39,100 nucleotides of DNA from Nanobdellati archaeon (GTDB lineage: Archaea > EX4484-52 > GLR71), in NCBI GenBank assembly GCA_019429005.1, contig JAHYJR010000008.1:1-39100 (forward strand). The letters are read 5' to 3'. The notes under the pieces are model-generated. The model ran no database searches. It was given only the letters and a program-made list of their open reading frames with translations, and had not been told where the DNA came from. How positions within the stretch are numbered: position 1 is the stretch's first letter; each line of letters opens with the position of its first letter. Shown here piece by piece: positions 8,057 to 38,762 of the stretch. Position numbers and translations under genes: made by a program.

Positions 8057-8067
8057 ACAGTTCACAC

Positions 8068-8116: not shown

Positions 8117-8428
8117 TCAGCAAGCTGCTTGTATACCACCACACTGTGCTTGCCATGCAGTACATGTAACACCATTATATTTCAAACTATCTGCATTATA
8201 TGTACCTTGTGTTGAACAACCAGACATTATCTGAAGATTACAATAAGATACTGCTGTAGAACATTGTGCTGCTACAGAAGATTCATTTGATTGCATATCC
8301 GTTCTCTTGAAAAAGTTTCCAAGACCACCTGACACGATTGTTATCACTACAAGACTTATAACAATCAATACAACTGCTGTTATGACAAGAGTCAAAGCAG
8401 CGCTCATACCTTTATTATTATTGACCAT
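8117..8428 (-). CDS. Prepilin-like protein, KGM class, cysteine-bearing
   Basis: The product has 103 residues. The leader is MVNNNKG, then MSAALTLVITAVVLIVISLVVITIV, so a type III signal peptide cut after Gly7 with one hydrophobic helix. The exterior of about 70 residues carries six cysteines (QCSTAVSYCNLQ...GCST...TCTAWQAQCGG...AAC). It is a clear paralogue of the gene at 8512: both share CSTAVS[YF]CNLQI and end in a cysteine two to six residues after Gly-Gly. GTGATT lies about 10 nt before the ATG, and a strong promoter (BRE plus TATA) lies at 8482-8499. It is likely a pilus or pseudopilus subunit. Confidence 0.8.
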   Translation of the reverse strand: MVNNNKGMSAALTLVITAVVLIVISLVVITIVSGGLGNFFKRTDMQSNESSVAAQCSTAVSYCNLQIMSGCSTQGTYNADSLKYNGVTCTAWQAQCGGIQAAC

Positions 8429-8481
8429 AAAAAATCACAAAATTTAAATTGATTAATAATATGATATAGATTAAGGCACTA

Positions 8482-8499
8482 TATAAATATTTCGGTTAT
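8482..8499 (-). promoter_or_regulatory. BRE/TATA promoter of the prepilin at 8117
   Basis: The minus strand reads ATAACCGAAATATTTATA: BRE CCGAAA followed by TATA box TATTTATA. Transcription should start near 8460, leaving about a 30-nt leader with GTGATT. The identical 18-mer precedes the membrane gene at 37530-38042. Confidence 0.7.
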
Positions 8500-8511
8500 A
8501 TATATATTTAC

Positions 8512-8832
8512 TCAACAAGAACTAGGCAGTCCACCACAAACATCATTCCAACTACCCAAACCAGTACAAGGTTTATTACTATACTCAAGATTATCACCGA
8601 TAAAATTACCGCTTGATGCACATGCAGAATTTATCTGAAGATTACAAAAAGATACCGCTGTAGAACACGTTAAAGCGTTATTAGAATTATTTGATTGTGT
8701 ACTAGTTCTCATAAAGAAATTATCCATACCACTTGAAACAATAGTAATAACAATAAGGCTCACAACAAGCAATATAACTGCAACTATGATGAGCGTCAAT
8801 CCGGCAGTCATACCTTTTTTGTTTTTAAACAT
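8512..8832 (-). CDS. Prepilin-like protein, KGM class, paralogue of 8117
   Basis: The 106-residue product begins MFKNKKG, then MTAGLTLIIVAVILLVVSLIVITIVSSG: type III signal peptide, cleavage after Gly7. The exterior has six cysteines (TCSTAVSFCNLQINSAC...PCTGLGSWNDVCGGLPSSC), in the same order as its neighbour. The ATG at 8832 is preferred to the TTG at 8835, since GTGAT lies about 10 nt before it. A TATA-like TATATTTAAAT at 8870-8880 (minus) gives it its own promoter. Confidence 0.8.
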   Translation of the reverse strand: MFKNKKGMTAGLTLIIVAVILLVVSLIVITIVSSGMDNFFMRTSTQSNNSNNALTCSTAVSFCNLQINSACASSGNFIGDNLEYSNKPCTGLGSWNDVCGGLPSSC

Positions 8833-8884
8833 CAATTATCACATCTTACAATTTTATTATTTTACACCGATTTAAATATATGAT

Positions 8885-11800
8885 TTAAGTCTCAACAGAA
8901 TCTCTCAAAACCCCAAAATATACACACCTCTGATATTCATTATTATCCGGCAAATTACAATCACCTACAAAACAATCAACGAAATTCAGGAAAGATGACA
9001 AAAGCGATGTTCTAACTTCCGTAAAGGAATCATATTTACAAACTTCAGGAGCTTCAAAACCCCCAATATCAACTGGTGCACCAATAGGAATAGCTCCAAT
9101 TATAGATTCATTTATTATAGCACCAGGTCCATCGTTCACCTGAATATAAAATCCAATTGATTTATCTGTTGGATGCCCAAAATTATCAAAATAACCATCC
9201 TCCCTAAGCATAGTCACGCTGATATAAACAATAATAGGATGATCTATCCAATAATACCTAAATGCCCGCATCTCACAATCCTCAACCTGCCAACACGTGC
9301 AGGATTCTCTGATACTAGCAGTCTGATCACAATTTGTATGAATTGAAACTTTTTGATCGCACGCTAATATATTAGTCCAAAAAGGTTGTGGTTTAACACA
9401 AAAATTTGTATTGCCACAACAATCAGAAGGACCTGTATTTGTATAATTACAACAATTACCAATACCATTACAATTATCTTTATTTAAATCGGCAGTATAA
9501 CCAGGATATGAACCATAAATAGTACAATCAGAATCACAAGTATTTGGAAGATCTGCATTAGGTTTCCAACAAACAATATTATTTAAATTATTATCCCACG
9601 TATAATCATTTTCACAACAACCATTATCATTATAACAAGTACTATAACGATTAGGGTTTGCTTTTATTGTATTAGGCTCATTAATATCTTCAGGATATTC
9701 ACAACAACTATTATCCTTCCAACACATTTGAAGAGATTCATTAGTATCTGCTCGTGGTGTAAATGCACGATAATTAGGTGTTACAAAAAATGTTGAATCA
9801 TCATAACAACCCGGAGAATCCACAGTATTCACAATCGAAGCATCACAACATACAGAATTACTACAATTCAAGACATTTAACGGTCGTTTATAATCTAAAA
9901 ATAATTCACTTTTGATATAACTCGCTTTCCACTCTTCCGCTTTTATCAAGCTCTGTGCTTCTGTATCATCTATACTTATACCCAATTCTGCAAAATTAGT
10001 TGGAACAATTTCCATAACAACTTTATAATCGGTCGTACTCAAACTTTCAGCATAGATATCAAGAGCAATTTGTAACCCTTCAAGATTTGCATAATGAGGT
10101 ACATGCTGATTAACACCTGCTTTAGTAAAATCTTTAGAAAAATCCGTAATAATATTTGAAAAATCAGTACAATCTAAATTATTTTTAATATAATTATCTA
10201 CATTACCATATATAAGTTTTAACCAAATAAGGCTATTACTATATTCTTCAACAAGTTGTGCCTCAATAACATCACATACAGACTGCTTTTCCGGAAAACC
10301 GAGATACCTATCAGAAGTCTCAAGAAGTGATAAACTTGGACAATGCTGTCGATACTTAAGGTGTGTAGATGTTATATGAGTATTATATGTTAAACCCGCG
10401 TCATCACAAGTAAGAATATTGTCATCAGTCATATCCCACTGATCTTGCCACTGATCTCTCCAAAGTTCCATTTCTTTGCGTAATACTATTGAAATCTGCT
10501 CACCTGAAGAAGAATCTAATTCATCTTCAACGAGTTCTTTTGCAAAATTATAAAGCTCTGGAAGATTTGTATCCATCGTAATATTATAAAGAAAATTATT
10601 TGTTATTGCCGTATCAGATAACTCTTTAGAGATACCATTATATGACGCACATGTCGCAATAAGTTTCCCACCACCAACATCAACTAAACTCTGTAAAGTT
10701 ACAGTCTCTGCATAATTTTCAGTATATTCTAATCTAATATCTTCAATAATTGGTATATAATTGACATCATAAGAAACCATATCAATCTTATACTTTAAAT
10801 TCGTCAAAACACCTGGATCTGTTCCAGTATCTATAATAGAATCATTTGTAACCTCATGCCATGTTGCACCATCATTAACAGATACATTTACCTTAATATC
10901 GCTAACCTTCGGATATAATTGTATTGCATCCCACGAACCATATAATGTTGATGATGCTGAAATATCACCAATAAATAAAAAGAACTTACCATACCGCACA
11001 TCAACCTCACCAAGGTCAACCCACTCAGAACCCAATCCTGCAGAAACAGATACCTTTCTATCTGGAACGGGATTAGAATATGAATACGTATATGTTAAAG
11101 CATCTGAATCTTTATGTAAAAGTGCTAAAACCTTATATTTGCCATTCAAAACATCAAGACTTATATTTACAATTGGAAGTATTTCGTCTGTACAACCAGC
11201 AATTGAAATATTATTAAAAGGTGAAGGGCTGTATGTTGAACTTGAAATATTAGTCCAATTATCATCTGTACAATTAAGAACATTCGGAAATGTAGTACCT
11301 TCTAAAAAATTATATTCAAACTCATATTCATTAGGCTGTAAATTATAATGTGTCTCGCCATCCCATTTAACTTTAACAAATATAATTGGATTTGTTGCAA
11401 TAATATTTTCAGATTCATAAGTACCATGGAAACTATTTATTATATCAACCTCATTAACCGTACTTGTAAAATATTTGTCTGTAAGATTGCTTTTCTCAAC
11501 CCAGCCAAATGATAATTTTACAAAATCTGTATCAGGATAAGAAATACCACCTTTTGCTAACCAAGTCAAACCATCAGAACTCTCAAAAACATTGTAACGT
11601 CCTCTTAAAACTTCAAACTTTAGGTATTTGTCACTTGGACAAACCACATTTGTCTGATATACAAAATTTGAACTATCTCCAGTACCCCAACTATAACCAT
11701 ATTTTTCACTAACACTATCTTTCAATAAAGTCTCAGAACTATCAGTTACGGCTGCCCAAAAATACACAGGATTAGTGTCTGCAAGATTATTTCCAGAATC

Positions 11801-12616
11801 ACAATTTAATTTTAATTTATAATTGACAACATCACCAATTGGAACCGCTCTTGGAACTTTCTCAATTATTTGATATGAATTATTAAGCAAATCATCAGAA
11901 CCTACCCAACTTATACCCGAACCCATAGAAATCTTATTATTTTCATCCAAAACGATATCCCATTTTGAACTATCAAGACTACCTAAATCAAATATATCAT
12001 ACGACGGCACCAAAACAGGATTAAGCTCCAATTGTGTACCTGTACTTAAAATATTATCAAAAATAGCACCAGTTGTTGACCAATCAGCATCATCATTTGA
12101 TATATCTGTCTTTGGAATATAAAATTGCTTACTTGGTTGTTCATCAGATCCAAAAAGAATATACGGAATTGCAATTTGTTTTTGAAGAATCATTGTAAAT
12201 GCTTTATCTATATTTTTAAGCATATCTGGACCAATATCTGTACCTACAACAGTTTCAGGAAATACAGCACCATCTTCATAAAACCAAAATGGAGCAAAAC
12301 CGTCATAAGTATCTATATCCCCAGAACCCTCTTTTTCTTCCATTGTATCAACATAATACCCTCCAGCTTTAGTCACTTGATCAAGTGCCATCTTAAGAGA
12401 ATACTCACAAATATTTTTTACCTTAAAAGCCCGAACTTCCTGTGTTTTTATATCAGACTGTATGATTTTTTGAGAATTATAATCTGCAATTTCCTCAGAA
12501 CCTATAAAAATCATCCAATTAAAAGTACTCATAATAACATAAAAAATCATTACAATAGCAAGTACAGTCATGATTTCACTCATACCTTTTTTATTTAATC
12601 CACCTTTTTTTTTCAT
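8885..12616 (-). CDS. Giant prepilin-like surface protein with cysteine-rich module (putative adhesin)
   Basis: The product is 1243 residues from the ATG at 12616. Numbering here runs from the longer frame at 12625. The leader KKKGGLNKKG precedes MSEIMTVLAIVMIFYVIMSTF, a type III signal with cleavage after Gly14. Residues 205-400 look like a beta-sandwich of the DUF1349/LamG kind (SSKWDI..., FESSDGLTW). Residues 450-640 are further beta-rich with many N-x-S/T sites. Residues 690-900 are more helical. Residues 920-1120 form a cysteine-rich stretch with repeated C-x(4-5)-CC units (CSNSVCC, CWKDNSCC, CYNDNGCC, CNGIGNCC), and the last 130 residues are mixed. A pilin helix on a protein this large suggests a tip adhesin or minor pilin. 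The start is set by an ATGATT element 9 nt upstream. It follows four other prepilin-like genes in one minus-strand operon. Confidence 0.82.
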   Translation of the reverse strand: MKKKGGLNKKGMSEIMTVLAIVMIFYVIMSTFNWMIFIGSEEIADYNSQKIIQSDIKTQEVRAFKVKNICEYSLKMALDQVTKAGGYYVDTMEEKEGSGDIDTYDGFAPFWFYEDGAVFPETVVGTDIGPDMLKNIDKAFTMILQKQIAIPYILFGSDEQPSKQFYIPKTDISNDDADWSTTGAIFDNILSTGTQLELNPVLVPSYDIFDLGSLDSSKWDIVLDENNKISMGSGISWVGSDDLLNNSYQIIEKVPRAVPIGDVVNYKLKLNCDSGNNLADTNPVYFWAAVTDSSETLLKDSVSEKYGYSWGTGDSSNFVYQTNVVCPSDKYLKFEVLRGRYNVFESSDGLTWLAKGGISYPDTDFVKLSFGWVEKSNLTDKYFTSTVNEVDIINSFHGTYESENIIATNPIIFVKVKWDGETHYNLQPNEYEFEYNFLEGTTFPNVLNCTDDNWTNISSSTYSPSPFNNISIAGCTDEILPIVNISLDVLNGKYKVLALLHKDSDALTYTYSYSNPVPDRKVSVSAGLGSEWVDLGEVDVRYGKFFLFIGDISASSTLYGSWDAIQLYPKVSDIKVNVSVNDGATWHEVTNDSIIDTGTDPGVLTNLKYKIDMVSYDVNYIPIIEDIRLEYTENYAETVTLQSLVDVGGGKLIATCASYNGISKELSDTAITNNFLYNITMDTNLPELYNFAKELVEDELDSSSGEQISIVLRKEMELWRDQWQDQWDMTDDNILTCDDAGLTYNTHITSTHLKYRQHCPSLSLLETSDRYLGFPEKQSVCDVIEAQLVEEYSNSLIWLKLIYGNVDNYIKNNLDCTDFSNIITDFSKDFTKAGVNQHVPHYANLEGLQIALDIYAESLSTTDYKVVMEIVPTNFAELGISIDDTEAQSLIKAEEWKASYIKSELFLDYKRPLNVLNCSNSVCCDASIVNTVDSPGCYDDSTFFVTPNYRAFTPRADTNESLQMCWKDNSCCEYPEDINEPNTIKANPNRYSTCYNDNGCCENDYTWDNNLNNIVCWKPNADLPNTCDSDCTIYGSYPGYTADLNKDNCNGIGNCCNYTNTGPSDCCGNTNFCVKPQPFWTNILACDQKVSIHTNCDQTASIRESCTCWQVEDCEMRAFRYYWIDHPIIVYISVTMLREDGYFDNFGHPTDKSIGFYIQVNDGPGAIINESIIGAIPIGAPVDIGGFEAPEVCKYDSFTEVRTSLLSSFLNFVDCFVGDCNLPDNNEYQRCVYFGVLRDSVET

Positions 12617-12638
12617 AAAAATCATATCAATAATTTAT

Positions 12639-13328
12639 TTAAACAGTACAAATATTATAATTTATAAGTATATCTTCAAATGTGTCGCTATATGCAACAA
12701 CATGAGTATCATACTTATATGCAATACCACAAAGATCTTTAAATTCGTCAGTACAAGTACCATTTATATCCAGTTTATTTTCAATACAAACTTCCATATT
12801 TAATACAGGTATTTCAATCCAACGCGGAGAATCTTCTATAATTTGTGATGCCTGTAATGCAATCCGTATACATCTTTCAAGATCAATAAAATGGGATGGC
12901 ACATTTTCACTTTTATATGCTACAAAATTAGGAGTAACCTTATTATAACCCTCATCTACATCATAACCATAAATAGGTAATTTAACACTATACTGTGTTT
13001 TGACAATACCTATCCATTTACTTAATGGAAACTTATATGGATCTCTAGTATAAACAAGTTCACGATCCTCACAAGAATCTTCATCCTGTTCAATTATACA
13101 TTTTATATATTTAACTTCAACAATTGGACACATATTAAAATTAAGCAAAGTATAAAGCTCAGTCTGTGTCGATGTGATCATATCAGATATGTCCATAATT
13201 CGCTCATATTTCTGCTTATTATATTCAATTATAATTGTACTCATAACAACAACAACCATAACGGCAAGAATTATAACTGCAGGACCTAATATATTTTCAA
13301 GCCCTTTTTTTCGATATAATTTACGCAC
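12639..13328 (-). CDS. Prepilin-like protein with GTG start
   Basis: The product is 229 residues: MRKLYRKKG, then LENILGPAVIILAVMVVVVMSTIII, a type III signal with cleavage after Gly9. The exterior contains CPIVEVKYIKCIIEQDEDSCEDRE and further cysteines (ERCIRIAL, NMEVCIE, GTCTDEFKDLCGIAY). The start is GTG at 13328, because GGTGATT (13332-13338) is a perfect Shine-Dalgarno 9 nt upstream; the apparent GTG start at 13337 is inside that site. It is the fourth gene of the minus-strand prepilin operon. I recognise no domain beyond the pilin-like helix. Confidence 0.75.
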   Translation of the reverse strand: MRKLYRKKGLENILGPAVIILAVMVVVVMSTIIIEYNKQKYERIMDISDMITSTQTELYTLLNFNMCPIVEVKYIKCIIEQDEDSCEDRELVYTRDPYKFPLSKWIGIVKTQYSVKLPIYGYDVDEGYNKVTPNFVAYKSENVPSHFIDLERCIRIALQASQIIEDSPRWIEIPVLNMEVCIENKLDINGTCTDEFKDLCGIAYKYDTHVVAYSDTFEDILINYNICTV

Positions 13329-13343
13329 ATAAATCACCTATCA

Positions 13344-13901
13344 TTAATTCCTAAAACCAAAATCCATTTTTGCAATATAAAAATCATCATCAACCCGTAC
13401 ATTAACAAGTTTAGTTATCTTTTCTTTTTCTGTAAACTCACTCATTATATGAATACCAGAACTTGTAGATAATTCACAAACAGGATTTGATCCAGTACAA
13501 GTCTTCATAACATACAAATTAGTATCAAAAGTTGGATATAATAAATACAAATCGATTGCCCAATCCAACCCTGGACCTATACACTTTTCAATATTAACTT
13601 TAAATTTGCCAGAGGTATCTATTTTTGAATAATTAAATATAAATTTATCACGATTTCCACCATCATCAAGAGATATTAAATCTTTACAACTAAGCATCTG
13701 ATAAAGAGCAATTTGACCAATTGATTTATTGTCAGAATCATCAACACTTTTTGTAAACACATAATTTGTAGATTTCATATGCATTATAAAAAAAACAATA
13801 ACAACCATAAACATTATACCCATTATGGCATCAGTACTGATTGAAAACTGACCTTTTGATGTTTGCCGTCGTGGCATTAATTTCAATTTTTTAAAAAACA
13901 T
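13344..13901 (-). CDS. Prepilin-like protein
   Basis: The product is 185 residues. The leader MFFKKLKLMPRRQTSKG is followed by QFSISTDAIMGIMFMVVIVFFIMHM. Gln at +1 after Gly is typical of archaeal class III signal peptides. The exterior is about 140 residues with cysteines in MLSCKDL, EKCIGPG and KTCTGSNPVCELS, and ends in a beta-rich tail. GTGATATA precedes the ATG. Gaps to its operon neighbours are 6-15 bp, so it is co-transcribed with the giant protein. Family unknown. Confidence 0.75.
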   Translation of the reverse strand: MFFKKLKLMPRRQTSKGQFSISTDAIMGIMFMVVIVFFIMHMKSTNYVFTKSVDDSDNKSIGQIALYQMLSCKDLISLDDGGNRDKFIFNYSKIDTSGKFKVNIEKCIGPGLDWAIDLYLLYPTFDTNLYVMKTCTGSNPVCELSTSSGIHIMSEFTEKEKITKLVNVRVDDDFYIAKMDFGFRN

Positions 13902-13915
13902 TATATCACAAATAA

Positions 13916-14791
13916 CTATTCAGATTTTATACTAAAACTATTTTCAAAATCAAATGTATGGATACTACCATCAAATTTAGAATCGGCTGAAACATAGATT
14001 TTATAAAAAGTATTATCTTGAAAATCATAAACATATTTCAAAACATTAATAGGTCCCTCAGCATAATGTAAAATTTCGGCATAACATCCATTTTTATTTG
14101 CTCCAGAAGTTGCCTGCCCCACAATATCATCAAAGTAAACTTCAGTATAAATCCCTGTTGCTAAATCAGTTATATTTAAAAAAACAGTATCATTTACAAA
14201 TTTCATATTTTTACCAAATATAACAGCAACACAACCAGGTATATTATTTGCAATACTTGAATTAATATTTTCTGTTGGCGTTAATGATAAAGGTGGCGTG
14301 TCAATCTTTGAAACTTTATATGCTGCATTAGCATCATCTGTAACCCAAAAATGAGTCTCATTTTTGCTAAAACAAATTTCACGTTTACTTTTACTTCCTT
14401 CTTCCCAATTAAACATTCTAGGAGTATCCATAAAGATTGTATCTTCAAGAAGATGAACCTTTTTCTGAGCCCAAATATTATGGCCACCATACATAACTTC
14501 AACACGCACACTGTCATGTGTAATTATTATTTTTGCATCAGCTCTTGTATCAACACAAAGTACCCCCTTATCTACAGTTGAAAGCAACATCATAACGGCA
14601 TAAATATTCCCTGCAGACATCTCAACTGCAGCCTGAAGTGTGTCAGCACTTTCAGTCATAATTTCACCAATAACGGGAGTCATAAGTAATAAAGCAACAA
14701 CAATAAGACCAATTTTGATCATAGGATAATCCATAAATCCTTTTTTAGAAACATTAAAAGATTTTAAAAACATCCAAAAATTATAATTCAT
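13916..14791 (-). CDS. Prepilin-like protein with beta-rich exterior
   Basis: The product is 291 residues. The leader MNYNFWMFLKSFNVSKKG precedes FMDYPMIKIGLIVVALLLMTPVIG, which fits a class III signal with cleavage after Gly18. The exterior is about 240 residues with few cysteines, mostly beta-type, with sequons such as NETHF and NITD. Its ATG overlaps the TGA of the upstream repeat protein (ATGA), so the two are translationally coupled. That coupling ties the Ca2+-loop repeat protein to the prepilin operon. Confidence 0.72.
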   Translation of the reverse strand: MNYNFWMFLKSFNVSKKGFMDYPMIKIGLIVVALLLMTPVIGEIMTESADTLQAAVEMSAGNIYAVMMLLSTVDKGVLCVDTRADAKIIITHDSVRVEVMYGGHNIWAQKKVHLLEDTIFMDTPRMFNWEEGSKSKREICFSKNETHFWVTDDANAAYKVSKIDTPPLSLTPTENINSSIANNIPGCVAVIFGKNMKFVNDTVFLNITDLATGIYTEVYFDDIVGQATSGANKNGCYAEILHYAEGPINVLKYVYDFQDNTFYKIYVSADSKFDGSIHTFDFENSFSIKSE

Positions 14792-15993
14792 ACAATATCA
14801 TCCTTTGCTATATATACATTACCTGCAAGAGATATATTAATTTGTTCTATTTGATATGGCCAGATAACAGGAACAGGATACATATAAATCATAAAATCAT
14901 CAAAATCACCATCATCATTCAAATCCATATTAATGGCGGCCTCATACACATTATAAACAATCCTAAAATCATCTATTGACGGTAACATCCCAACACCAAC
15001 TACAAAAGAATAACTATTATAAGCATCATAATATAAAATCACAAAATCATCAATATCACCATCAACATTATAATCTAAACCAACACTACTTTCATTAATA
15101 AAATAAACAAAAATATGAAAATATCTGTTTGGAATTGGTCCAATTATTGGAAGAATTTCTCGAGAACTCATATTATATTTTGCATTAATAACGCCATCAA
15201 AAAAAGCATCACCATCAATATCATAACCTAAATAAGCTTCATTTGTTTGAAAATAAATAAGATTTTTATATAACTTAGGCACATTACCCTCAATACCCGT
15301 ATTTATAGTTCTTCGTAAAACAATATCATAATATTGTATAACATTATCATCAATATCGCCATCCTGATTCAAATCATAACCAGCCCACATTTCGGGTGTT
15401 GAAAAGACTATTTTTGAATCCACCATATGAGGATACATCCCAAATTCATAAGTATTATATACCACTTGAGATGTAATATTATAATACCTAATATAAGTTG
15501 GAACCTGTTCAAGTGATGTAATTTCAAAATCAAACATACGTGTATTGGCAGACAAATCAGTATAAAAAGATTGAAATGCTACAACATCACTAAAAAGAGA
15601 TGGATTGAAACCAGATAAATCTAGAACCGTTTCCGTATTATCTGTTAAATTATAATAAGCCAAAATCAAATCAATCTTATCAAGATCATTATTATAATCT
15701 TTAATTTTAACTTCTTCAGAAACATAATATGCTATAAGATTACTATAAATTGATGGATACATACCCTCAATACCAAGATTAACACGCAAACTTTTTGAAA
15801 AATCAATATCATCAATAGTCTCTATCTTTTTAAAATCACCAATATCTCTACCAATATTAGGTTCAGTATTATCAAAAGAATCTGACAAAAATTGCAACTT
15901 GCCCGTATCAACACCAAATAAAATAACTAATTCAATAATAAATAGAGCAATAAGAACAAACCTACTCTTTTTTGAAAAAATATTGATATGCAT
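14788..15993 (-). CDS. Membrane-tethered beta-propeller-like repeat protein with Ca2+-loop motifs (copy 1)
   Basis: The product is 401 residues: a short basic N-terminus (NIFSKKSRF), one hydrophobic segment (VLIALFIIELVILFGV), then an exterior with about six repeats of 50-60 residues. Each repeat has a GMYPSIY-type strand, a V-x-F strand, an EF-hand-like acidic loop (DLNQDGDIDD, DIDGDAFFDG, DYNVDGDIDD, DLNDDGDFDD) and a YYNITS-type strand. The pattern fits a TolB-like propeller whose blades each carry a dockerin/EF-hand-type Ca2+ loop. It is a paralogue of 18752-19936. The ATG at 15993 lies about 25 nt from the TATA box at 16014-16023 with no Shine-Dalgarno, so it is probably leaderless. It leads the minus-strand prepilin operon and is coupled to the next gene. 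Confidence 0.75.
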   Translation of the reverse strand: MHINIFSKKSRFVLIALFIIELVILFGVDTGKLQFLSDSFDNTEPNIGRDIGDFKKIETIDDIDFSKSLRVNLGIEGMYPSIYSNLIAYYVSEEVKIKDYNNDLDKIDLILAYYNLTDNTETVLDLSGFNPSLFSDVVAFQSFYTDLSANTRMFDFEITSLEQVPTYIRYYNITSQVVYNTYEFGMYPHMVDSKIVFSTPEMWAGYDLNQDGDIDDNVIQYYDIVLRRTINTGIEGNVPKLYKNLIYFQTNEAYLGYDIDGDAFFDGVINAKYNMSSREILPIIGPIPNRYFHIFVYFINESSVGLDYNVDGDIDDFVILYYDAYNSYSFVVGVGMLPSIDDFRIVYNVYEAAINMDLNDDGDFDDFMIYMYPVPVIWPYQIEQINISLAGNVYIAKDDIV

Positions 15994-16013
15994 CAAAATT
16001 ATTTAGGTCTAAT

Positions 16014-16023
16014 CCTATAAATA
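16014..16023 (-). promoter_or_regulatory. TATA box of the minus-strand prepilin operon
   Basis: The minus strand reads TATTTATAGG, centred about 25 nt before the ATG at 15993. That spacing predicts a leaderless mRNA. Confidence 0.6.
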
Positions 16024-16044
16024 CATTAGATATAACTTCATTAA

Positions 16045-16056
16045 ATATAAAAGCAA
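16045..16056 (+). promoter_or_regulatory. TATA box of the plus-strand prepilin operon
   Basis: ATATAAAAGCAA lies about 25 nt before the ATG at 16075, which has no Shine-Dalgarno. The ATAAAAGCAA core recurs in the other divergent promoter of this locus at 19987-20000. Confidence 0.6.
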
Positions 16057-16074
16057 CTCAATCCAAATAAATGT

Positions 16075-16422
16075 ATGACTGTAAATTCACAACCCATAAA
16101 TCTAATAAATATCACTCAAATCACACAACATCTCAAAATAAATCTTATGTTTAAACTAGACCTATTTAAAATAACTTCAAATATAATCTGGACAAAATGG
16201 CTCACATTCACATCAAGTAAACTTGTCATTAAAAACCGTAAAGGTGAAATGACAATAAATAAGATTATTGCAATACTACTCGGCCTTGTTGTTGTAGCTC
16301 TTACTGCAAGCTTATTTATATCCCTGAAAACTAAAGCTACAGGAAGTATAAATTGTATTTGCACACCCGCCTACTCAGGAATAGTACCTCCTGGCTGTAA
16401 AAATACTATAGCCTGCCCATGA
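16075..16422 (+). CDS. Prepilin-like protein with long cytosolic leader
   Basis: The product is 115 residues. A long N-terminus of about 60 residues ends in KLVIKNRKG, followed by EMTINKIIAILLGLVVVALTASLFI. The short exterior carries NCICTPAYSG...GCKNTIACP. Glu directly after the Gly is unusual for the cleavage site. The ATG at 16075 fits the TATA box at 16045-16056 as a leaderless start; an alternative ATG at 16147 would give the shorter leader usual for prepilins. It is the first gene of the plus-strand prepilin series. Confidence 0.6.
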   Translation: MTVNSQPINLINITQITQHLKINLMFKLDLFKITSNIIWTKWLTFTSSKLVIKNRKGEMTINKIIAILLGLVVVALTASLFISLKTKATGSINCICTPAYSGIVPPGCKNTIACP

Positions 16423-16445
16423 TAATAATTTAATGGTAGATAATT

Positions 16446-16703
16446 ATGATATTTAAAAAGAAAAGAAAAGGTATAGAACAGTCAATATGGCTCATAATGG
16501 TAGCCGTCATATCACTTATAATTGCATTAATCATCATAACCATGTTTAGTAGCAGTTTTGAAACAACCCAAAAACATTCTTCAGAATCTATAAATAACAG
16601 TGCAAACAGCCTTGAGTGCACAAGAATCTGCAGAACGTCATGTATAACAAATGGTGAACCTGATAATAGTGGCCCTGGATGTTCAGGATGTACCTGCTTA
16701 TAA
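16446..16703 (+). CDS. Cysteine-rich mini-prepilin (EQSIW family)
   Basis: The product is 85 residues: MIFKKKRKG, then IEQSIWLIMVAVISLIIALIIITMF, a class III signal with Glu at +2. The exterior of about 45 residues carries seven cysteines (LECTRICRTSC...GCSGCTC). It shares RKGIEQ[SG]IWL with the genes at 17005 and 17310, so these are local duplicates. The ribosome binding site is GGTAGAT. It is probably a disulfide-stabilised minor pilin or secreted pseudopilin. Confidence 0.75.
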   Translation: MIFKKKRKGIEQSIWLIMVAVISLIIALIIITMFSSSFETTQKHSSESINNSANSLECTRICRTSCITNGEPDNSGPGCSGCTCL

Positions 16704-16724
16704 CATATTTAATTAGGTAATCAT

Positions 16725-16994
16725 ATGACAAAAAAAGCATTATCTGCAGCAGTATGGTATGTAATGGCAATTATGCTTGCAATACTTATGGTCCTTGTAC
16801 TGGTTAATGTGTTTGGTAAAAGTATGGAAATGGCTGGCAATACAACAAAAGAAACCATAAACATGTCATTCACACCAATCCAATGTATAGCCGAATGTAA
16901 TATATGCTGTTCAGATCCAAACGAACAGGATTGTAGTAATCTACCCTCCGAGTGTTCCTGCGATGATACAGATACAAGAAATCCTGGATGTTAA
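16725..16994 (+). CDS. Cysteine-rich mini-prepilin
   Basis: The product is 89 residues: MTKKA, then LSAAVWYVMAIMLAILMVLVLVNVFG. Ala replaces Gly at the processing site. The exterior holds IQCIAECNICCSDPNEQDC...ECSCDD...GC, the C-x(3)-C-x-x-CC pattern seen in the neighbours. GGTAATC precedes the ATG. It ends 10 bp before the next member. Confidence 0.75.
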   Translation: MTKKALSAAVWYVMAIMLAILMVLVLVNVFGKSMEMAGNTTKETINMSFTPIQCIAECNICCSDPNEQDCSNLPSECSCDDTDTRNPGC

Positions 16995-17004
16995 AGGTGT
17001 TATT

Positions 17005-17286
17005 TTGAAACGAAAAGGTATAGAACAATCAATATGGCTTATAATGGTCGCAATAATATCTTTGATTATGGTACTTATACTTATGACACTTTTTAGCAGT
17101 TCAATGGAAAAAACAGGTGTTGAAAGCCAAAAATCAATAAACTCAACAGGAATATCAATAAAATGCACAATCGCATGTAAACAATGCTGTGTTTCACGGA
17201 TAGAACCAGATTGTAAAGACTTTGTAAATAACAATTACTTAGGTTGCACTTGTGTTGATTCAGACACCTCCGAAGTCGGATGTTAA
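17005..17286 (+). CDS. Cysteine-rich mini-prepilin (EQSIW family), TTG start
   Basis: The product is 93 residues: MKRKG, then IEQSIWLIMVAIISLIMVLILMTLF. The exterior is IKCTIACKQCCVSRIEPDC...GCTCVDSDTSEVGC. The start is TTG at 17005, because AAAGGTG (16993-16999) is a Shine-Dalgarno just upstream and the product then lines up with the paralogue at 16446. A longer frame from 16963 would add residues that overlap the previous gene. Confidence 0.75.
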   Translation: MKRKGIEQSIWLIMVAIISLIMVLILMTLFSSSMEKTGVESQKSINSTGISIKCTIACKQCCVSRIEPDCKDFVNNNYLGCTCVDSDTSEVGC

Positions 17287-17309
17287 CAAATTAAATCAAA
17301 GTGATAATT

Positions 17310-17618
17310 ATGAATTTAAGAAAAAATATAATTGAAAAAAAGCGTAAAGGAATAGAACAAGGTATTTGGCTGATGATGGTCATCGTATTGTGCCTTGTTA
17401 TCGCACTAACACTTATAACAATATTTAGAAGCGGAACAAAAGAAGCTGGAAACCAGACAAGCCAAGGTATAGACCAAAGTGCAGGAGGTGTATATGATGT
17501 TCTTGAAATTTGCGGCTGTGTAGGTGGTGTTTGTACGGCTAGTTGTAATTGTCAACTAAAGTCGTCTTGTCCATCATCACCACCATGTTCCAGTTCATCA
17601 GATTGCACAAGATCATAA
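17310..17618 (+). CDS. Cysteine-rich mini-prepilin (EQGIW family)
   Basis: The product is 102 residues. The leader MNLRKNIIEKKRKG precedes IEQGIWLMMVIVLCLVIALTLITIF. The exterior is CGCVGGVCTASCNCQLKSSCPSSPPC and ends in a Ser/Cys-rich tail. The ATG at 17310 is 9 nt after the GTG of AAAGTGATAATT, so the longer MII- form from 17301 is the ribosome binding site. The third EQxIW duplicate, but its exterior has diverged strongly. Confidence 0.73.
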   Translation: MNLRKNIIEKKRKGIEQGIWLMMVIVLCLVIALTLITIFRSGTKEAGNQTSQGIDQSAGGVYDVLEICGCVGGVCTASCNCQLKSSCPSSPPCSSSSDCTRS

Positions 17619-17628
17619 GTGATTAATT

Positions 17629-17961
17629 ATGAAACAAACAAAACCTCAAAAAAAAGCAATGAGCCAAACAATATGGCTTGTAGTAGTCGTAATTATCTCA
17701 CTTTTATTAGTTCTTGTGCTTGTTGAATTTTTCACAAATGGTAGCGAAAAGATGCGAGATACATCAAGCGATCTTAATGAACAGACAGGAAACGCCATGA
17801 TATGTTCAGTCAAATGCAGTACTTGTTGTACTTTAGAAAGTGCTACGTGTGCAGACAATACGGCTAAAGATAGTGTTCCTGGTATGAGCTATGACAAAAT
17901 GATAGTCAACGGAATTACTTGCCCACTAATGAAAGATTGTGCTTACACTTGTTGCTGTTAA
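17629..17961 (+). CDS. Cysteine-rich mini-prepilin (MSQTIW)
   Basis: The product is 110 residues: MKQTKPQKKA, then MSQTIWLVVVVIISLLLVLVLVEFF. Ala is at -1. The exterior has ICSVKCSTCCTLESATCAD and ends CPLMKDCAYTCCC. AAGTGATT is the ribosome binding site. With its neighbours it makes five consecutive mini-prepilins with C-x(3)-C-x-x-C or CC exteriors. Confidence 0.73.
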   Translation: MKQTKPQKKAMSQTIWLVVVVIISLLLVLVLVEFFTNGSEKMRDTSSDLNEQTGNAMICSVKCSTCCTLESATCADNTAKDSVPGMSYDKMIVNGITCPLMKDCAYTCCC

Positions 17962-17984
17962 AAAAAACTATATTGTGAATGGAT

Positions 17985-18755
17985 ATGAAAATAACACCAA
18001 ACATGATAATCAAACTGTTTCTTTTGCTTTTATGTGGCTACAGCCTTCTTGAATCCGAAAATATAGACCACAAAAAAGACACAACACCAAAAACAACAAA
18101 AAAACGTAAAGGTCAACAAGAAGTCGCAAGTGTGCCAGAAATGGCATTAAGAATCTTAATTCTAGTTTTTATCATAGCTATAATAATTAAATATTGGGTT
18201 GTTGGTATCAATATGATATTACAAGTCCTTTTCAAATTATGGCATTTTATTGATCAATTTAGATGGGGTATCTCGTTAGGATCAACAATAGTTTCATACA
18301 AACATGCAACATATGCAGCAATACTTTTTGCATCTGCGACCGCACTAACTGCCTCAGGTATAGGTATTGGGGCTGCCGCGATTTTAACCGATATGGCAAT
18401 AGACCAATTAATAGAAGCCGGATTATGGGGTGCAATTACACAATTAATAACCACATTCAATATATACTCAGACATTGAATTTGGATCTCCTACAAATAGA
18501 GATGAAGAATGTGTAATTAAATGCTTTAATTATTGTGCAAACACAATCAACTCAGCAATAATTAAATTAAATTACACAGATACGTCAGGAACGGATAAAG
18601 AATGTAAAGATAATTGTAATTGTGGTCTAAGAACATTAGAAAACCAAAATATGGGTGGATATGTAGGAACTTTTGCTGAAATACTCCAAGATAGTGGTAC
18701 AGCAGCAATAGATACAATCACAAAAATAACATCGGGTTTTACAAGTATATTCTAA
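17985..18755 (+). CDS. Prepilin-like multi-helix membrane protein
   Basis: The product is 256 residues from the ATG at 17985 (GTGAAT about 10 nt upstream; another ATG is at 17979). A first hydrophobic stretch (IIKLFLLLLCGYSLL) is followed by a basic run TKKRKG and QQEVASVPEMALRILILVFIIAI, which resembles an internal class III site. There are at least two more hydrophobic segments (TIVSYKHATYAAILFASA, GIGIGAAAILTDMAI) and a cysteine-bearing tail (CVIKCFNYC, CKDNCNCG). It could be a membrane partner of the prepilins rather than a fibre subunit. It ends tail-to-tail with 18752-19936, with overlapping stop codons. Confidence 0.6.
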   Translation: MKITPNMIIKLFLLLLCGYSLLESENIDHKKDTTPKTTKKRKGQQEVASVPEMALRILILVFIIAIIIKYWVVGINMILQVLFKLWHFIDQFRWGISLGSTIVSYKHATYAAILFASATALTASGIGIGAAAILTDMAIDQLIEAGLWGAITQLITTFNIYSDIEFGSPTNRDEECVIKCFNYCANTINSAIIKLNYTDTSGTDKECKDNCNCGLRTLENQNMGGYVGTFAEILQDSGTAAIDTITKITSGFTSIF

Positions 18756-19936
18756 GATGTTAATTTTACCCATTTTATAACATAACTATCTAATAAATAA
18801 TTTTCAAAATCAGTTTCATTTACAGTTTCAAAATTAGTAATAAAATTAGATACTTCATTATTATCATAATTATAGTCATGCCACACCATAAGATCACCAG
18901 TTTCTGTTATAAATGGTCCAGTACCAGAAAGCCCCGTATTAACAACCGTACCCCCTATAATATTTGCATATAATATAATAGTATCTAATATATCACCATT
19001 TTGATTAAAATCAATACCAAACGTTGTTTCTTTTACAGAAAAAGGCATATTATAATTAAAATTAATAGACTTGTAATCATCTTCAGACATTAAAATACCT
19101 GTAGTACCTGTCAATAAATTATAATATCTTAAAATATAAGATATTAAATAGGTGTCAAGATCAACATCATTTTCAACAACAAGTTCATTTGTTATAAATA
19201 CAATATAATCGTCATATATCCTAGAATTAATACCCTCAAGACCGGTATTTACAAGACGACCTGATGTTATATTATAAAATGCAATAACAGAATCCTCAAA
19301 ATCACCATCATTTGTAATGTCATTATCATACGATTCAAGAAGCTGAAATGTTATAATATCTTTAAAAATAAATGGATTAAAACCTTCAATTACAGGTATA
19401 TCAAGAAACTGTTTAGAGGATATATTATAGATTAATATTACAGAATCCTCTTTATCTGCATCAAGATTAAGATCTTTATTTACTTTAACTTCAAAAGCAT
19501 CAAAAACTATTAAATCCTCATAAATTGAAGGATACATACCCTCAATACCCGTATTGAAAAGTTGTCCAGAGGATATATTATAATATTGTATAATTACATC
19601 ATCAAAATCAAAATCATTATTTAAATCTTCAATAGACATTTCTTCAACAGTCATAAAAACAATGATATCACCATATGCTTTTGGCATAATACCCTTAATA
19701 TCTGTTGATACACCTTTCAAATTAGCTTTATTATATATTATATCTTCTGGAAGCCAACTACCATTATCTTCAATAATTGGAATATTTTCAAAATCAGACA
19801 TTAAGTCAAAAAAAGGATCATTATCAATACTTGAATTTTGAGGTGTCCATAAATATACAAATATTAAAAAAACAAATAAAATCAATAGTATTTTATTAAA
19901 AACAGTTAATTTATACTTTTGAGATATCATATCCAT
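18752..19936 (-). CDS. Membrane-tethered beta-propeller-like repeat protein with Ca2+-loop motifs (copy 2)
   Basis: The product is 394 residues. An N-terminal helix (FNKILLILFVFLIFVYLW) precedes about six repeats with acidic loops DLNNDFDFDD, DLNLDADKED, DITNDGDFED and DFNQNGDILD, each followed by I-x-x-YNISSG and a (V/L)NTGLEG turn. It matches the protein at 14788-15993 in layout and motif but differs widely in sequence, so the duplication is old. A TATA stretch at 19956-19966 sits about 25 nt before the ATG without a Shine-Dalgarno, giving a likely leaderless start. It stands alone as a minus-strand gene among plus-strand prepilin genes. A surface-exposed Ca2+-dependent partner of the prepilins is a reasonable guess. 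Confidence 0.75.
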   Translation of the reverse strand: MDMISQKYKLTVFNKILLILFVFLIFVYLWTPQNSSIDNDPFFDLMSDFENIPIIEDNGSWLPEDIIYNKANLKGVSTDIKGIMPKAYGDIIVFMTVEEMSIEDLNNDFDFDDVIIQYYNISSGQLFNTGIEGMYPSIYEDLIVFDAFEVKVNKDLNLDADKEDSVILIYNISSKQFLDIPVIEGFNPFIFKDIITFQLLESYDNDITNDGDFEDSVIAFYNITSGRLVNTGLEGINSRIYDDYIVFITNELVVENDVDLDTYLISYILRYYNLLTGTTGILMSEDDYKSINFNYNMPFSVKETTFGIDFNQNGDILDTIILYANIIGGTVVNTGLSGTGPFITETGDLMVWHDYNYDNNEVSNFITNFETVNETDFENYLLDSYVIKWVKLTS

Positions 19937-19955
19937 ATTAATTAATTGCTTTTAA

Positions 19956-19997
19956 TAATATAAAAAGCTATCAAAAAACTTCAATAATTATAAAAGC
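19956..19997. promoter_or_regulatory. Divergent promoter pair of repeat protein copy 2 and the 20021 prepilin
   Basis: The minus strand carries CTTTTTATATT about 25 nt before 19936. The plus strand carries ATTATAAAAGC about 28 nt before 20021. Inverted copies of AATTGCTTTT flank the pair (19943-19952 and, inverted, 19991-20001). Confidence 0.55.
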
Positions 19998-20020
19998 AAT
20001 TAAAACTAAATACAAAGATA

Positions 20021-21310
20021 ATGATAACTTCCACAATTAAACAAAAAAACAAAAAAAAAGGCTTAACTCCTGCAATTATCGCAATCATGGGTTTCGGACT
20101 AATTCTTACAACATTTGGTATATTTTCATTTATAAAATCAACACAATTAGGTGGCGAATTTATGGAAAATTTAATGGGTTATCAAAATCAAAAATGCGTT
20201 GAATCATACACAAACCCAAAATATACAGAAGACAAAAATGATATGTATGATAAAGCAATAACAAGAGAAACCGCAAAAATGTTATGTGAAATGGAAGCTA
20301 AAAAAACTGATGGTTGGTTAAGATGTTCCTTTGACTGGAATCAAGTTAAAGACAAAATGGTTGGAAACACTCTATATACCGGATTGACTTGCATGGCCAT
20401 ATCTGGAGATAGTAATAATGTTATATGCACAGGTGCTGCTTCTGCATTTTTAGCAGCCGGTGATATATTTAGCACAGCGATAAACACAAAATGCACAACA
20501 ACCGAAGATACATATGCAGGTATAAGGGGTAGTGATGGTTATAAACGAGCAATATTAGTCAAAATCATCGCCGAAGAAGGCGTAGAGACTGTTGGTATCT
20601 TAACTTTAGGTTCTGCAATTAAAGGTGCAATTGATATCACTGAAGCCACACAAGCAAGCAGAAATCTTGCAACAATGTCTGCAGATGATATTGCAACGAA
20701 AGTGACAAGACTAAATTATAAACAATATGTCACAGCAACTGCATATCAATTAAATGGAATAAGAAATGAAATAAAAGCACTAACACTTAAAATAGCTCAA
20801 CAAGAAGCTCTTGTAGGCAAAATGCTTTATGAGGGTTCTTATAGTGCTACACAATTAACAGATGCAAAACTATTATTATCGAGCCACAGAACAGAATATA
20901 AACGATTATTACAGATAAACAGCGAATATTGGAAACAATTTGAAAGACTTAGTAAAATATTACCTACAGGAAATATCGGATCAGTACGAAAAGTAGCAAC
21001 AAACACATTAAGAACTCTTGAAAATACTCAAAATTTAAAAACAGCATACCAAGCCATAGATCTTGCAGCATCTACAACAAATTTTATTGATTCTGTAAAA
21101 AAGGCAGGACCAGCTACTAATTTTTTACGATTCGGAATACCTGCATTAGGTGCTTTAAGTTCCGGTGTTGTAATTGCAGCTGTTGCAAATCCGGGATTAC
21201 TACCAGATCATCTTGAAACAGCATTAAGTTCGGTAAATCCCTTTGAATCAAAATTAAGACTTTTTGATTACGCTTACGATATGGTTCACATTATAAGATC
21301 AGGAGATTAA
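20021..21310 (+). CDS. Large prepilin-like protein, family unknown
   Basis: The product is 429 residues. The leader MITSTIKQKNKKKG precedes LTPAIIAIMGFGLILTTFGIFSFI, a class III signal with cleavage after Gly14. The next 140 residues hold cysteines (QKCVESY, MLCEMEAKK, LRCSFDW, LTCMAI, VICTG, TKCTTTED). A long helical middle (residues 200-340) follows, and then a second hydrophobic segment near the C-terminus (FGIPALGALSSGVVIAAVANPGLL). An Ala/Gly-rich helix EGVETVGILTLGSAIKGAIDI lies at about 188-210. It is likely leaderless or nearly so. It is followed 2 bp later by the gene at 21313. Confidence 0.65.
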   Translation: MITSTIKQKNKKKGLTPAIIAIMGFGLILTTFGIFSFIKSTQLGGEFMENLMGYQNQKCVESYTNPKYTEDKNDMYDKAITRETAKMLCEMEAKKTDGWLRCSFDWNQVKDKMVGNTLYTGLTCMAISGDSNNVICTGAASAFLAAGDIFSTAINTKCTTTEDTYAGIRGSDGYKRAILVKIIAEEGVETVGILTLGSAIKGAIDITEATQASRNLATMSADDIATKVTRLNYKQYVTATAYQLNGIRNEIKALTLKIAQQEALVGKMLYEGSYSATQLTDAKLLLSSHRTEYKRLLQINSEYWKQFERLSKILPTGNIGSVRKVATNTLRTLENTQNLKTAYQAIDLAASTTNFIDSVKKAGPATNFLRFGIPALGALSSGVVIAAVANPGLLPDHLETALSSVNPFESKLRLFDYAYDMVHIIRSGD

Positions 21311-21312
21311 AA

Positions 21313-21762
21313 ATGACCCAAAAAAAAGGCAGCATGTTCACAATGGAAAACACAGTAATACTCATAATTGCAATCTTATCTGTAGCATTCATAATCAAAG
21401 CTGGCTTCGCATACCAAACAAGACTTTATACACCACCAATGTGTGTTGATACAGATATTGAACCACCTGTGACCTATGACATAGATTCCTGTTGGACTGA
21501 TAATAAAACAGGATTTGATTTAAACTATACTTGTAGTATAAATAGACAAATTATTGAATGTGGTAAAATACTTAGTGATTCGGCTGGAACCTGCACATAC
21601 GGTTCAGGCTGCGATTGTGTTAAAGGGGGTCAGATTTATCCAATCCATTCTTGCAGAGATGTTGCAGGAACAAATTACAGCTGTGAAAGAAGCAGAAGAT
21701 CACCATACCCTGAAATGATTACTTGTTCAGGATTATGTCACGAAACAATAGGATGTGTTTAA
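21313..21762 (+). CDS. Prepilin-like cysteine-rich protein
   Basis: The product is 149 residues: MTQKKG, then SMFTMENTVILIIAILSVAFIIKAGF, followed by a compact exterior with about a dozen cysteines (MCVDTD, DSCWTD, YTCSINRQIIECGK, GTCTYGSGCDCVKGG, HSCRD, YSCERS, ITCSGLCHETIGC). AGGAGATT is a good ribosome binding site. A disulfide-rich exterior on a pilin-like stalk fits the rest of the locus. Confidence 0.72.
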   Translation: MTQKKGSMFTMENTVILIIAILSVAFIIKAGFAYQTRLYTPPMCVDTDIEPPVTYDIDSCWTDNKTGFDLNYTCSINRQIIECGKILSDSAGTCTYGSGCDCVKGGQIYPIHSCRDVAGTNYSCERSRRSPYPEMITCSGLCHETIGCV

Positions 21763-21811
21763 AAAAAAATCTTACCGAAAAGTATTAATTAAAATAAATA
21801 TAATGATTATT

Positions 21812-22075
21812 ATGACACCATTAATATTCTTCTTTGAAAATATTAAATTGAGAGCAATATTATTAAAAACTAGAAAAGGTGATACCGGCTGGGGTATGAA
21901 TCAGATGATGACTATAATTCTTATACTTCTTGTACTTGCTATGGGACTTATGGTTTTTAGTAAAGTCAGTGGACAGACAACAGCATGGGGTTGTGATTTT
22001 TCAAACAGCCTCATAAGTAAAGTCGCCGCACTTGAAGTCTTTGGTATGGATTCTGAAACAACACGGGTTTGTTAA
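21812..22075 (+). CDS. Prepilin-like small protein
   Basis: The product is 87 residues from the ATG at 21812, which has an ATGATTATT element 9 nt upstream; a longer frame opens with GTG at 21755. The leader ends LLKTRKG, then DTGWGMNQMMTIILILLVLAMGLMVF. The exterior is short, with WGCDFSNSL and a final Cys. The hydrophobic leader stretch (TPLIFFFENIKLRAILL) is longer than normal. Confidence 0.6.
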   Translation: MTPLIFFFENIKLRAILLKTRKGDTGWGMNQMMTIILILLVLAMGLMVFSKVSGQTTAWGCDFSNSLISKVAALEVFGMDSETTRVC

Positions 22076-22077
22076 TT

Positions 22078-22272
22078 ATGCTAATACGACCATTATTATA
22101 CATAATCGCACGCAAACGAAAAGGTTCAATAGAACTAGATAGTGTTTTTAAGATTGTTCTATCTGTAATAATGCTCGCTGGAGTTCTAATATTCTTACTT
22201 GCTATGAAAGGTGGATTTCTTGATGGTAGTGTCGCAAGTATAAACAGCACATTAAATAAAACATTGATATAG
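22078..22272 (+). CDS. Mini-prepilin without cysteines
   Basis: The product is 64 residues: MLIRPLLYIIARKRKG, then SIELDSVFKIVLSVIMLAGVLIFLLAM and a 20-residue tail with GGFLDGSVASINSTLN. Gly-Ser-Ile-Glu fits the class III site. It starts 2 bp after the previous stop. Very short exteriors like this suggest a structural or adaptor subunit. Confidence 0.65.
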   Translation: MLIRPLLYIIARKRKGSIELDSVFKIVLSVIMLAGVLIFLLAMKGGFLDGSVASINSTLNKTLI

Positions 22273-22284
22273 GTAAAACCCATT

Positions 22285-22482
22285 ATGACAAAACAAAAAA
22301 AAGGTGCAATGGAAATAAATACTATGATGAAAATAATCCTTGTCATTTTAGGAATCGGCGTACTTGCAATATTACTTAGTATTATGAACGGAAATCTTCT
22401 AGGAGATAACGGTGTTGTATCCGAACTTGCAAACGCAAGCAACATGACAAATATGATAAACAAAAATAATTGGCAAATTTGA
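22285..22482 (+). CDS. Mini-prepilin without cysteines
   Basis: The product is 65 residues: MTKQKKG, then AMEINTMMKIILVILGIGVLAILLSIM and a short tail ending in NMTNMINKNNWQI. It resembles the previous gene (GSIELDSVFKIVL against GAMEINTMMKIIL, then GG/NG and N-rich tails), so they are likely a duplicate pair. AGGTAAA is the ribosome binding site. It is the last gene of the plus-strand prepilin series and convergent with the HIT gene. Confidence 0.65.
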   Translation: MTKQKKGAMEINTMMKIILVILGIGVLAILLSIMNGNLLGDNGVVSELANASNMTNMINKNNWQI

Positions 22483-22494: not shown

Positions 22495-22896
22495 TTAAAA
22501 ATTATCCTTTATTTTCAACGCAATCCTATGATTCTCTTCTTTTGTCACATCCACATGATGCGTTATATCAAAATCCCTACCATATGCAGGTATAAGATGA
22601 ATATGTACATGCGAAATCATGAAACCCTCAACATAAACACAGGTCCTTAAAGAATCAAGTGTCTTATCCATCGCACCTGCAACCTTAAAACACACATCCA
22701 TAAGTTTTTGATACGCCTTAGAACCCATCTTAAATAGATTATCACCTGGATGTTTTTTTGGAATAACAAGAACATGTCCAAGAGAAACTGGATTTACATC
22801 AAGAAACGCTAAAAAAGTATCATCCTCATAAACTTTTTCAGATGGAATCTCACCAGACACAATTTTACAAAATAGACAATCACTAATATCAAACAC
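22495..22896 (-). CDS. HIT-family nucleotide-binding hydrolase
   Basis: This is a histidine triad protein of about 130 residues that hydrolyses nucleoside phosphoramidates or dinucleoside polyphosphates in the cytosol. The N-terminus is the typical SDCLFCKIVSGEIPSEKVYED with the first zinc-type cysteines. The catalytic triad is HVHIHLIPAYG. The start is unusual: family members begin at the residue before SDCLFC, and here that codon is ATT (22887), 9 nt after the GTG of a GGTG ribosome-binding-like site. Conventional starts are only TTG (22899) and GTG (22896), the latter lying inside that site. Confidence 0.9.
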   Translation of the reverse strand: MFDISDCLFCKIVSGEIPSEKVYEDDTFLAFLDVNPVSLGHVLVIPKKHPGDNLFKMGSKAYQKLMDVCFKVAGAMDKTLDSLRTCVYVEGFMISHVHIHLIPAYGRDFDITHHVDVTKEENHRIALKIKDNF

Positions 22897-22913
22897 CAAC
22901 TTTATTATATTAC

Positions 22914-33840: not shown

Positions 33841-33865
33841 TTATTGTATTAAATATGTGATATTA

Positions 33866-34273: not shown

Positions 34274-34284
34274 ATGGTGTTACT

Positions 34285-35553: not shown

Positions 35554-35572
35554 AAGTATTATATGTCGCCTT

Positions 35573-35584
35573 GATATTTAAATG
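35573..35584 (-). promoter_or_regulatory. TATA box before the divergent five-helix gene
   Basis: The minus strand reads CATTTAAATATC, with CCAAAA upstream as possible BRE, centred about 25 nt before the ATG at 35553. Confidence 0.55.
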
Positions 35585-35599
35585 TTTTGGAATTACTTA

Positions 35600-38750: not shown

Positions 38751-38762
38751 AATAATCATCAA

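Follow-up and report, generated by a model that had tools for sequence, protein, structure and literature searches.

What machine, if any, is served by a run of about 18 prepilin-type genes on a single archaeal contig? The genes lie at 8117-22482 of a 39,100-nucleotide stretch (positions 1 to 39,100 of contig JAHYJR010000008.1, assembly GCA_019429005.1), here called the window, from a Nanobdellati archaeon of the phylum EX4484-52. A sequence-only reading had proposed that they form a candidate undescribed surface or secretion system. Our analysis indicates that the prepilins are probably the subunits of a single type IV-filament system, one of the archaeal type IV pilus (T4P)/Tad kind, with its motor in the ATPase, TadC-type platform, coiled-coil and five-transmembrane (5-TM) proteins encoded at 29.4-38.8 kb of the same window.

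All 18 open reading frames (ORFs) are present with the cleavage sites that had been read from the sequence, six on the minus strand (A1-A6) and twelve on the plus strand (B1-B7, B9-B13), and the class III signal is solid in 16 of them. Of the 18, 17 are recognised by a scanner for this signal (a basic leader followed by Gly or Ala and a single hydrophobic helix), and A1 (MVNNNKG) is missed solely for its single basic residue before the Gly. The doubtful members are B1, which lacks a usual start codon near the cleavage site, and B7, in which a 44-residue leader has a hydrophobic stretch of its own and is accompanied by a further transmembrane (TM) segment; B11 reads as a clean prepilin if translation starts at TTG 21848 and not otherwise. 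The other 25 genes of the window give no hit with this scanner, and 268 control genes, from 300 kb of the genome remote from the other pilus ATPases, give 4; the clustering of class III genes is far beyond chance. Seven small pilins, A1, A2 and B2-B6, are paralogues (A1 versus A2, 54%). A7 and B8, also inside the block, have no class III site and are not prepilins; they are cysteine-free paralogues of one another (27% identical, E 6e-36). Both lie on the minus strand among the prepilins and carry repeats of about 55 residues (IYxDxIVF...D-N-D-D...YYNISS); no counterpart of the two proteins was found in relatives. The genome encodes one A24 prepilin peptidase (C10:122020, PF01478, 37.6 bits), while a genome search for the PF06847 peptidase returned no match.

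The exteriors, bounded before counting at 28 residues past the cleavage site, are distinguished by their cysteines. Cys makes up 9-14% of them in the pilins of 85-110 residues, whereas a 333-protein sample of the genome has 1.2% overall and no protein above 7.6%; the number of cysteines is even in all 16 Cys-bearing exteriors (6, 6, 38, 8, 4, 4, 4, 6, 8, 8, 8, 10, 6, 6, 12 and 2), with B12 and B13 having none. Even and odd counts stand at 111:8 for class III proteins in loci of the phylum versus 105:152 in ordinary proteins of this genome, a control with no even excess; the binomial value of 2.5e-24 for this parity overstates the certainty, since related sequences are not independent. The even counts therefore bear out the earlier impression that most exteriors are rich in paired cysteines, and the exterior domains are almost certainly extracytoplasmic and disulfide-paired. 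The genome encodes a DsbA-like thioredoxin-fold protein; VKOR was searched for and not found.

Conservation was assessed in 34 genomes of the phylum, the order, class and phylum ranks giving the same 34. With tblastn, A3, A4, A5, A6, B7 and B9 match the window alone, except for two weak local matches of a single A3 segment in giant ORFs; the species-specific locus that this suggested at first was overturned by profile searches. A profile of the seven small pilin paralogues matches 34 of 34 genomes, often in clusters and down to 2e-18 outside the species, and a profile of the giant Cys-rich prepilins (F3) matches 26 of 34. Clusters of the relatives share a layout of a small-pilin group, tiny prepilins of about 65 residues, and a series of four larger prepilins, the last of them giant and Cys-rich. 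This last run, A6-A5-A4-A3 in transcription order, recurs in most taxonomic families of the phylum (eleven genomes), with counterpart lengths in residues of 155-235-214-697 (G029), 156-401-221-603 (G004), 145-164-231-748 (G032) and 430-180-237-1521 (G019). Content and order thus recur in relatives, and the locus stands as the unit that had been proposed from clustering; the outcome named beforehand as refuting it, an order shared with no relative, did not occur. Two proteins were dropped as counterparts: the 491-residue one that takes the place of B8 in relatives proved to be a prolyl-tRNA synthetase, and that of 1340 residues in their clusters a subtilase.

Profiles of the four positions (F3-F6) hold together as each taxonomic family is omitted in turn, at 97.5-99.9% for F3, 80-97% for F4 (which fails for family f7), 77-94% for F5 and 64-98% for F6. 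The window members are very diverged from them, with probabilities of 7-58%; to the profile of its own position, hhalign places A3 at 14%, A4 at 49.6%, A5 at 6.8% and A6 at 21.7%. Among nine window proteins tested, F3, F5 and F6 each rank the protein at the expected position first, whereas F4 ranks A5 first and then A4; by our own calculation, the chance of three correct picks in four is about 0.005.

No locus gene reaches a Pfam cut-off, and NCBIfam gives no match among the eight tested; the prepilins are outside the described pilin families of both databases, a property that is not strictly defining, and their best PDB matches include an archaeal pilin at an E value of only 0.16. Pilins diverge fast and poor conservation is usual, so the missing family match does not exclude T4P membership.

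Linkage to an assembly motor is seen both within and beyond the phylum. The T2SSE/TadA-type ATPase is found in 34 of 34 genomes, where its pairing with the platform is conserved; the platform has nine predicted TM segments, and counterparts with 36-51% identity lie next to or near the ATPase in relatives. In three phyla the order cc2-cc1-ATPase of the two coiled-coil genes and the ATPase is conserved, and the M family of 4-5 TM proteins adjoins cc2. The M family is expanded in tandem, with six copies in the window and between three and five in relatives. In named genomes a scan finds 293 loci with this ATPase, including Aenigmatarchaeota and Nanohaloarchaeota, and EX4484-52 has been placed close to the latter phylum (PMC9765267). 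In other DPANN phyla, among 36 loci with at least 9 kb of downstream sequence, 16 have at least three class III genes downstream of ATPase-TadC and 20 have at least five proteins with a single N-terminal TM segment, compared with 0 and 1 of 30 upstream. Counted per gene, class III signals occur in 84 of 411 downstream versus 6 of 383 upstream genes, and the other-phyla clusters include F3-type, F5 (2e-8) and F6 (2e-5) members. On the complete chromosome of Nanohaloarchaea archaeon M3_22, a 5-TM gene, cc2, cc1, ATPase and TadC are followed by some ten prepilins, F6 among them, then by a pilin of the window family and gpmI. This Nanohaloarchaeota run, ATPase-TadC-prepilins-pilin-gpmI, parallels the gpmI-pilin-prepilins...TadC-ATPase of the window, and gpmI closes the cluster in three Nanohaloarchaeota loci. 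Family f5 includes genomes with a pilin gene immediately upstream of the ATPase. Absence of a prepilin-motor link had first been suggested by ATPase neighbourhoods in the same phylum without prepilin clusters; the link was then seen in other phyla. The simplest reading is one ancestral supercluster that is split in the window. As a stand-alone system the locus does not hold up, with a likely motor in the same window that sits directly upstream of equivalent clusters in other DPANN phyla.

This linkage also bears on whether the prepilins polymerise at all. Separately anchored Cys-rich surface proteins, forming an unpolymerised coat with a fast-changing repertoire, would fit the very low sequence conservation, the span of exterior size from 20 to 1200 residues and the presence in the block of A7 and B8, anchored yet not prepilins; however, an assembly ATPase and platform genetically linked across three phyla, and four larger prepilins that keep a conserved order, make such a coat improbable.

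The affinities of the ATPase raise two further possibilities. Its nearest solved structures are 2OAP, CpaF and FlaI, the closest being Archaeoglobus GspE2, and it matches the FlaI model at 107 bits. An archaellum or archaellum derivative, to which this match and a very weak FlaC match of cc2 might point, is highly improbable: 107 bits is far below the archaellum cut-off of 550, the prepilins have no Pfam or NCBIfam archaellin match, and no FlaH, FlaF or FlaG is present among the window genes scanned, a genome-wide search not having been made. The match to GspE2 favours a pseudopilus-type secretion machine, in which the prepilins, instead of building a long pilus on the surface, form a short piston that pushes proteins or DNA through the envelope. 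So do the order of four prepilin genes, one of them large, which is reminiscent of GspH-I-J-K, and the giant subtilase and other secreted proteins encoded in clusters of the relatives. We consider this unlikely: the seven small pilin paralogues in tandem point to an abundant shaft, an outer-membrane-like pore or secretin is not expected in an archaeon, and the exteriors are large and fast-evolving, and in that adhesin-like.

A T4P/Tad-type filament would be built as follows. The prepilins would enter the membrane with the class III leader on the cytoplasmic side, and the single A24 peptidase would cleave them after KG or KA. Their exteriors would fold outside the cell with disulfides paired, and the ATPase and platform would build the filament by packing the helices together. 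The tandem small Cys-rich paralogues A1, A2 and B2-B6 may supply the shaft or alternative shaft subunits, while A6-A5-A4-A3, including the giant A3, may form a minor-pilin tip or initiation complex with an adhesive exterior. In a DPANN cell the likely use would be contact with a host or neighbour cell. Tentatively, and with rather less confidence than we place in the filament itself, this could be a distinct type IV filament class of the Nanohaloarchaeota-Aenigmatarchaeota-EX4484-52 branch, a host-holding organelle that would have a four-part tip (A6-A5-A4-A3) of its own, motor parts of the M-family and coiled-coil types, and fast-diversifying, disulfide-clamped pilins.

Several observations weigh against a single T4P/Tad-type filament with these parts. 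Neither in the window nor in its nearest relatives do the prepilins adjoin the ATPase, 7 kb of unrelated genes lying between, and six further T2SSE-like ATPase matches occur in the genome, two of which neighbour ordinary PilA-like pilins. Without the helix, profile scores of A3-A6 fall to noise, and their orthology to F3-F6 is supported mainly by gene order; the proposed tip role is drawn by analogy alone with GspH-I-J-K or FimU-PilV-W-X. AlphaFold models are uninformative past the N-terminal helix: that of B4 shows one long helix and an unstructured Cys tail (mean predicted local distance difference test score, pLDDT, of 63), and that of A5 is confident at the N-terminal helix only (mean pLDDT 47.5). 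Finally, no filament has been seen: the computations establish the prepilin architecture, the disulfide parity, the conservation, the link to a motor and the existence of a peptidase, and filament formation, the division into shaft and tip, and host contact are inferred.

Table 1. Features of the window, in order of position.
Feature	Position	Strand	Description	Basis
gpmI	5152..6660	+	phosphoglycerate mutase, conserved flank	synteny
Methyltransferase	7427..8065	-	S-adenosylmethionine (SAM) methyltransferase between gpmI and A1	Pfam Methyltransf_11 5.9e-16
A1	8117..8428	-	prepilin, NNNKG/MSAAL, 6 Cys	paralogue of A2, B2-B6; similar pilin beside methyltransferase/gpmI in relatives
A2	8512..8835	-	prepilin, KNKKG/MTAGL, 6 Cys	class III scan, paralogy
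A3	8885..12625	-	giant prepilin, 1246 residues, LNKKG/MSEIM, 38 exterior Cys	class III site; F3 position
A4	12639..13337	-	prepilin, 232 residues, YRKKG/LENIL, 8 Cys	F4 position; shared TxLYxLLNxNxC motif
A5	13344..13901	-	prepilin, 185 residues, TSKG/QFSIS, 4 Cys	F5 position; alignment
A6	13916..14791	-	prepilin, 291 residues, VSKKG/FMDYP, 4 Cys	F6 position; alignment
A7	14788..15996	-	N-terminally anchored repeat protein, beta-propeller-like by eye, no Cys	B8 paralogue
B1	16075..16422	+	candidate small prepilin, NRKG/EMTIN	hidden Markov model (HMM) similarity to relatives' family of ~66 residues
B2	16446..16703	+	small Cys-rich prepilin, KKRKG/IEQSIW	class III scan, paralogy
B3	16725..16994	+	small Cys-rich prepilin, TKKA/LSAAVW	class III scan, paralogy
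B4	16963..17286	+	small Cys-rich prepilin, LKRKG/IEQSIW	class III scan, paralogy
B5	17301..17618	+	small Cys-rich prepilin, KKRKG/IEQGIW	class III scan, paralogy
B6	17629..17961	+	small Cys-rich prepilin, QKKA/MSQTIW, 10 Cys	class III scan, paralogy
B7	17979..18755	+	doubtful prepilin, 258 residues, KKRKG/QQEVA	class III scan
B8	18752..19936	-	A7 paralogue, not a prepilin	paralogy
B9	20021..21310	+	prepilin, 429 residues, KKKG/LTPAI	class III scan
B10	21313..21762	+	prepilin, 149 residues, QKKG/SMFTM, 12 Cys	class III scan, Cys count
B11	21755..22075	+	prepilin, TRKG/DTGWG, given TTG 21848 start	class III scan
B12	22069..22272	+	small prepilin, KRKG/SIELD, no Cys	relatives' family of ~62 residues, hhalign 90%
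B13	22285..22482	+	small prepilin, QKKG/AMEIN, no Cys	relatives' family of ~66 residues, 71%
HIT	22495..22899	-	HIT-family protein, flank with MFS gene (22970-24181)	synteny
Platform	29422..31587	-	TadC/T2SSF-type membrane platform	T2SSF 1.9e-5, 25.1 bits vs cut-off 25.2
ATPase	31548..33809	-	T2SSE/TadA-type ATPase, Cys-bearing N-terminal domain	T2SSE 1.3e-14
cc1, cc2	33857..35055	+	coiled-coil proteins (cc1 33857-34273, cc2 34285-35055)	divergent from ATPase
M family	35077..38762	-	six 4-5 TM proteins	five close paralogues, MDLYxxMGxLxxxGxxDxLLPFLLFYAIFLG

The flanks of the locus are partly conserved as well. The gpmI gene adjoins pilin genes in seven relatives, in three of which, all of the same taxonomic family, the methyltransferase is also present beside an A1-type pilin, and the HIT-MFS pair also borders a prepilin cluster on contig G024:C121. 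Between gpmI and the methyltransferase, 6995-7406 holds 37 copies of an 11-bp tandem repeat, ATAAATATAAA, which leaves three reading frames open; the ORFs listed there look like artefacts. At 38948-39100 a perfect 26-bp repeat of 5.9 copies, an array without spacers, runs into the contig end and may have broken the assembly.

Elsewhere in the genome, two other T4P-type loci (L018 and L020) have six to seven ordinary PilA-like prepilins beside other ATPases; the cell therefore has several pilus systems, with only one A24 prepilin peptidase detected. Two giant frames, one a single open frame across a whole 20 kb (L031, G000:C8:30000-49999; at least 6666 codons) and the other an ORF of 3474 codons (L029), possibly encode SPEARE-type giant surface proteins.

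Much of archaeal diversity belongs to the DPANN archaea; most are thought to be attached to other cells, and their surface machines are mostly unknown. The locus offers a concrete candidate list of subunits for DPANN pili whose pilins were reported as unannotated (PMC9563170), and a recognition rule (class III signal, even Cys count, A6-A5-A4-A3 order, and gpmI and ATPase-TadC as neighbours) that works across at least three phyla. With a locus in the complete genome of Nanohaloarchaea archaeon M3_22, pilus composition and host binding become testable.

Among known systems, the Tad-like clusters of Nanohaloarchaeota (Nucleotidisoterales) and Undinarchaeota likewise pair a TadA-type ATPase with a TadC-type platform in DPANN, as in the Nanohaloarchaeota loci found here; they differ in having no annotated pilins (PMC9563170), against about 10-18 prepilins per locus here, in loci that may coincide with the published clusters. 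The four larger prepilins resemble GspH-I-J-K and FimU-PilV-PilW-PilX in forming a conserved run that ends in a much larger member, a likeness by analogy only, with no sequence similarity shown. Clade 1 T4P of Methanococci and Thermococci carry several major prepilins and no fewer than five minor ones (PMC4858521); they share with the window a complex locus, minor prepilins and large adhesin-like proteins, and differ in having an EppA peptidase in the locus and DUF2341 adhesins, neither of which is in the window locus. Clade 4G T4P of Thermoproteales combine many unrelated prepilins, two large proteins, multiple cysteines in nearly all components and very fast evolution (PMC4858521). Many Cys-rich, fast-evolving prepilins are thus common to clade 4G and the window, although the lineage is another, no family match was found, and no MinD ATPase, the FleN/MinD type being typical of clade 4G, is present among the window genes scanned in Pfam. 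Both clades show that the two to six prepilins per archaeal T4P locus assumed in the sequence-only reading was too low a norm, and prepilin loci without an ATPase were noted by Makarova et al. (PMC4858521). No description of this prepilin set was found in the literature searched, from which subscription papers were mostly outside coverage. As such, the proposal of an undescribed system is upheld for the prepilin set, which itself appears undescribed, but not for the kind of system: with a TadA/GspE2/FlaI-type ATPase and a TadC-type platform 7 kb away, it is of a kind already known from the complex Cys-rich T4P of archaea (PMC4858521).

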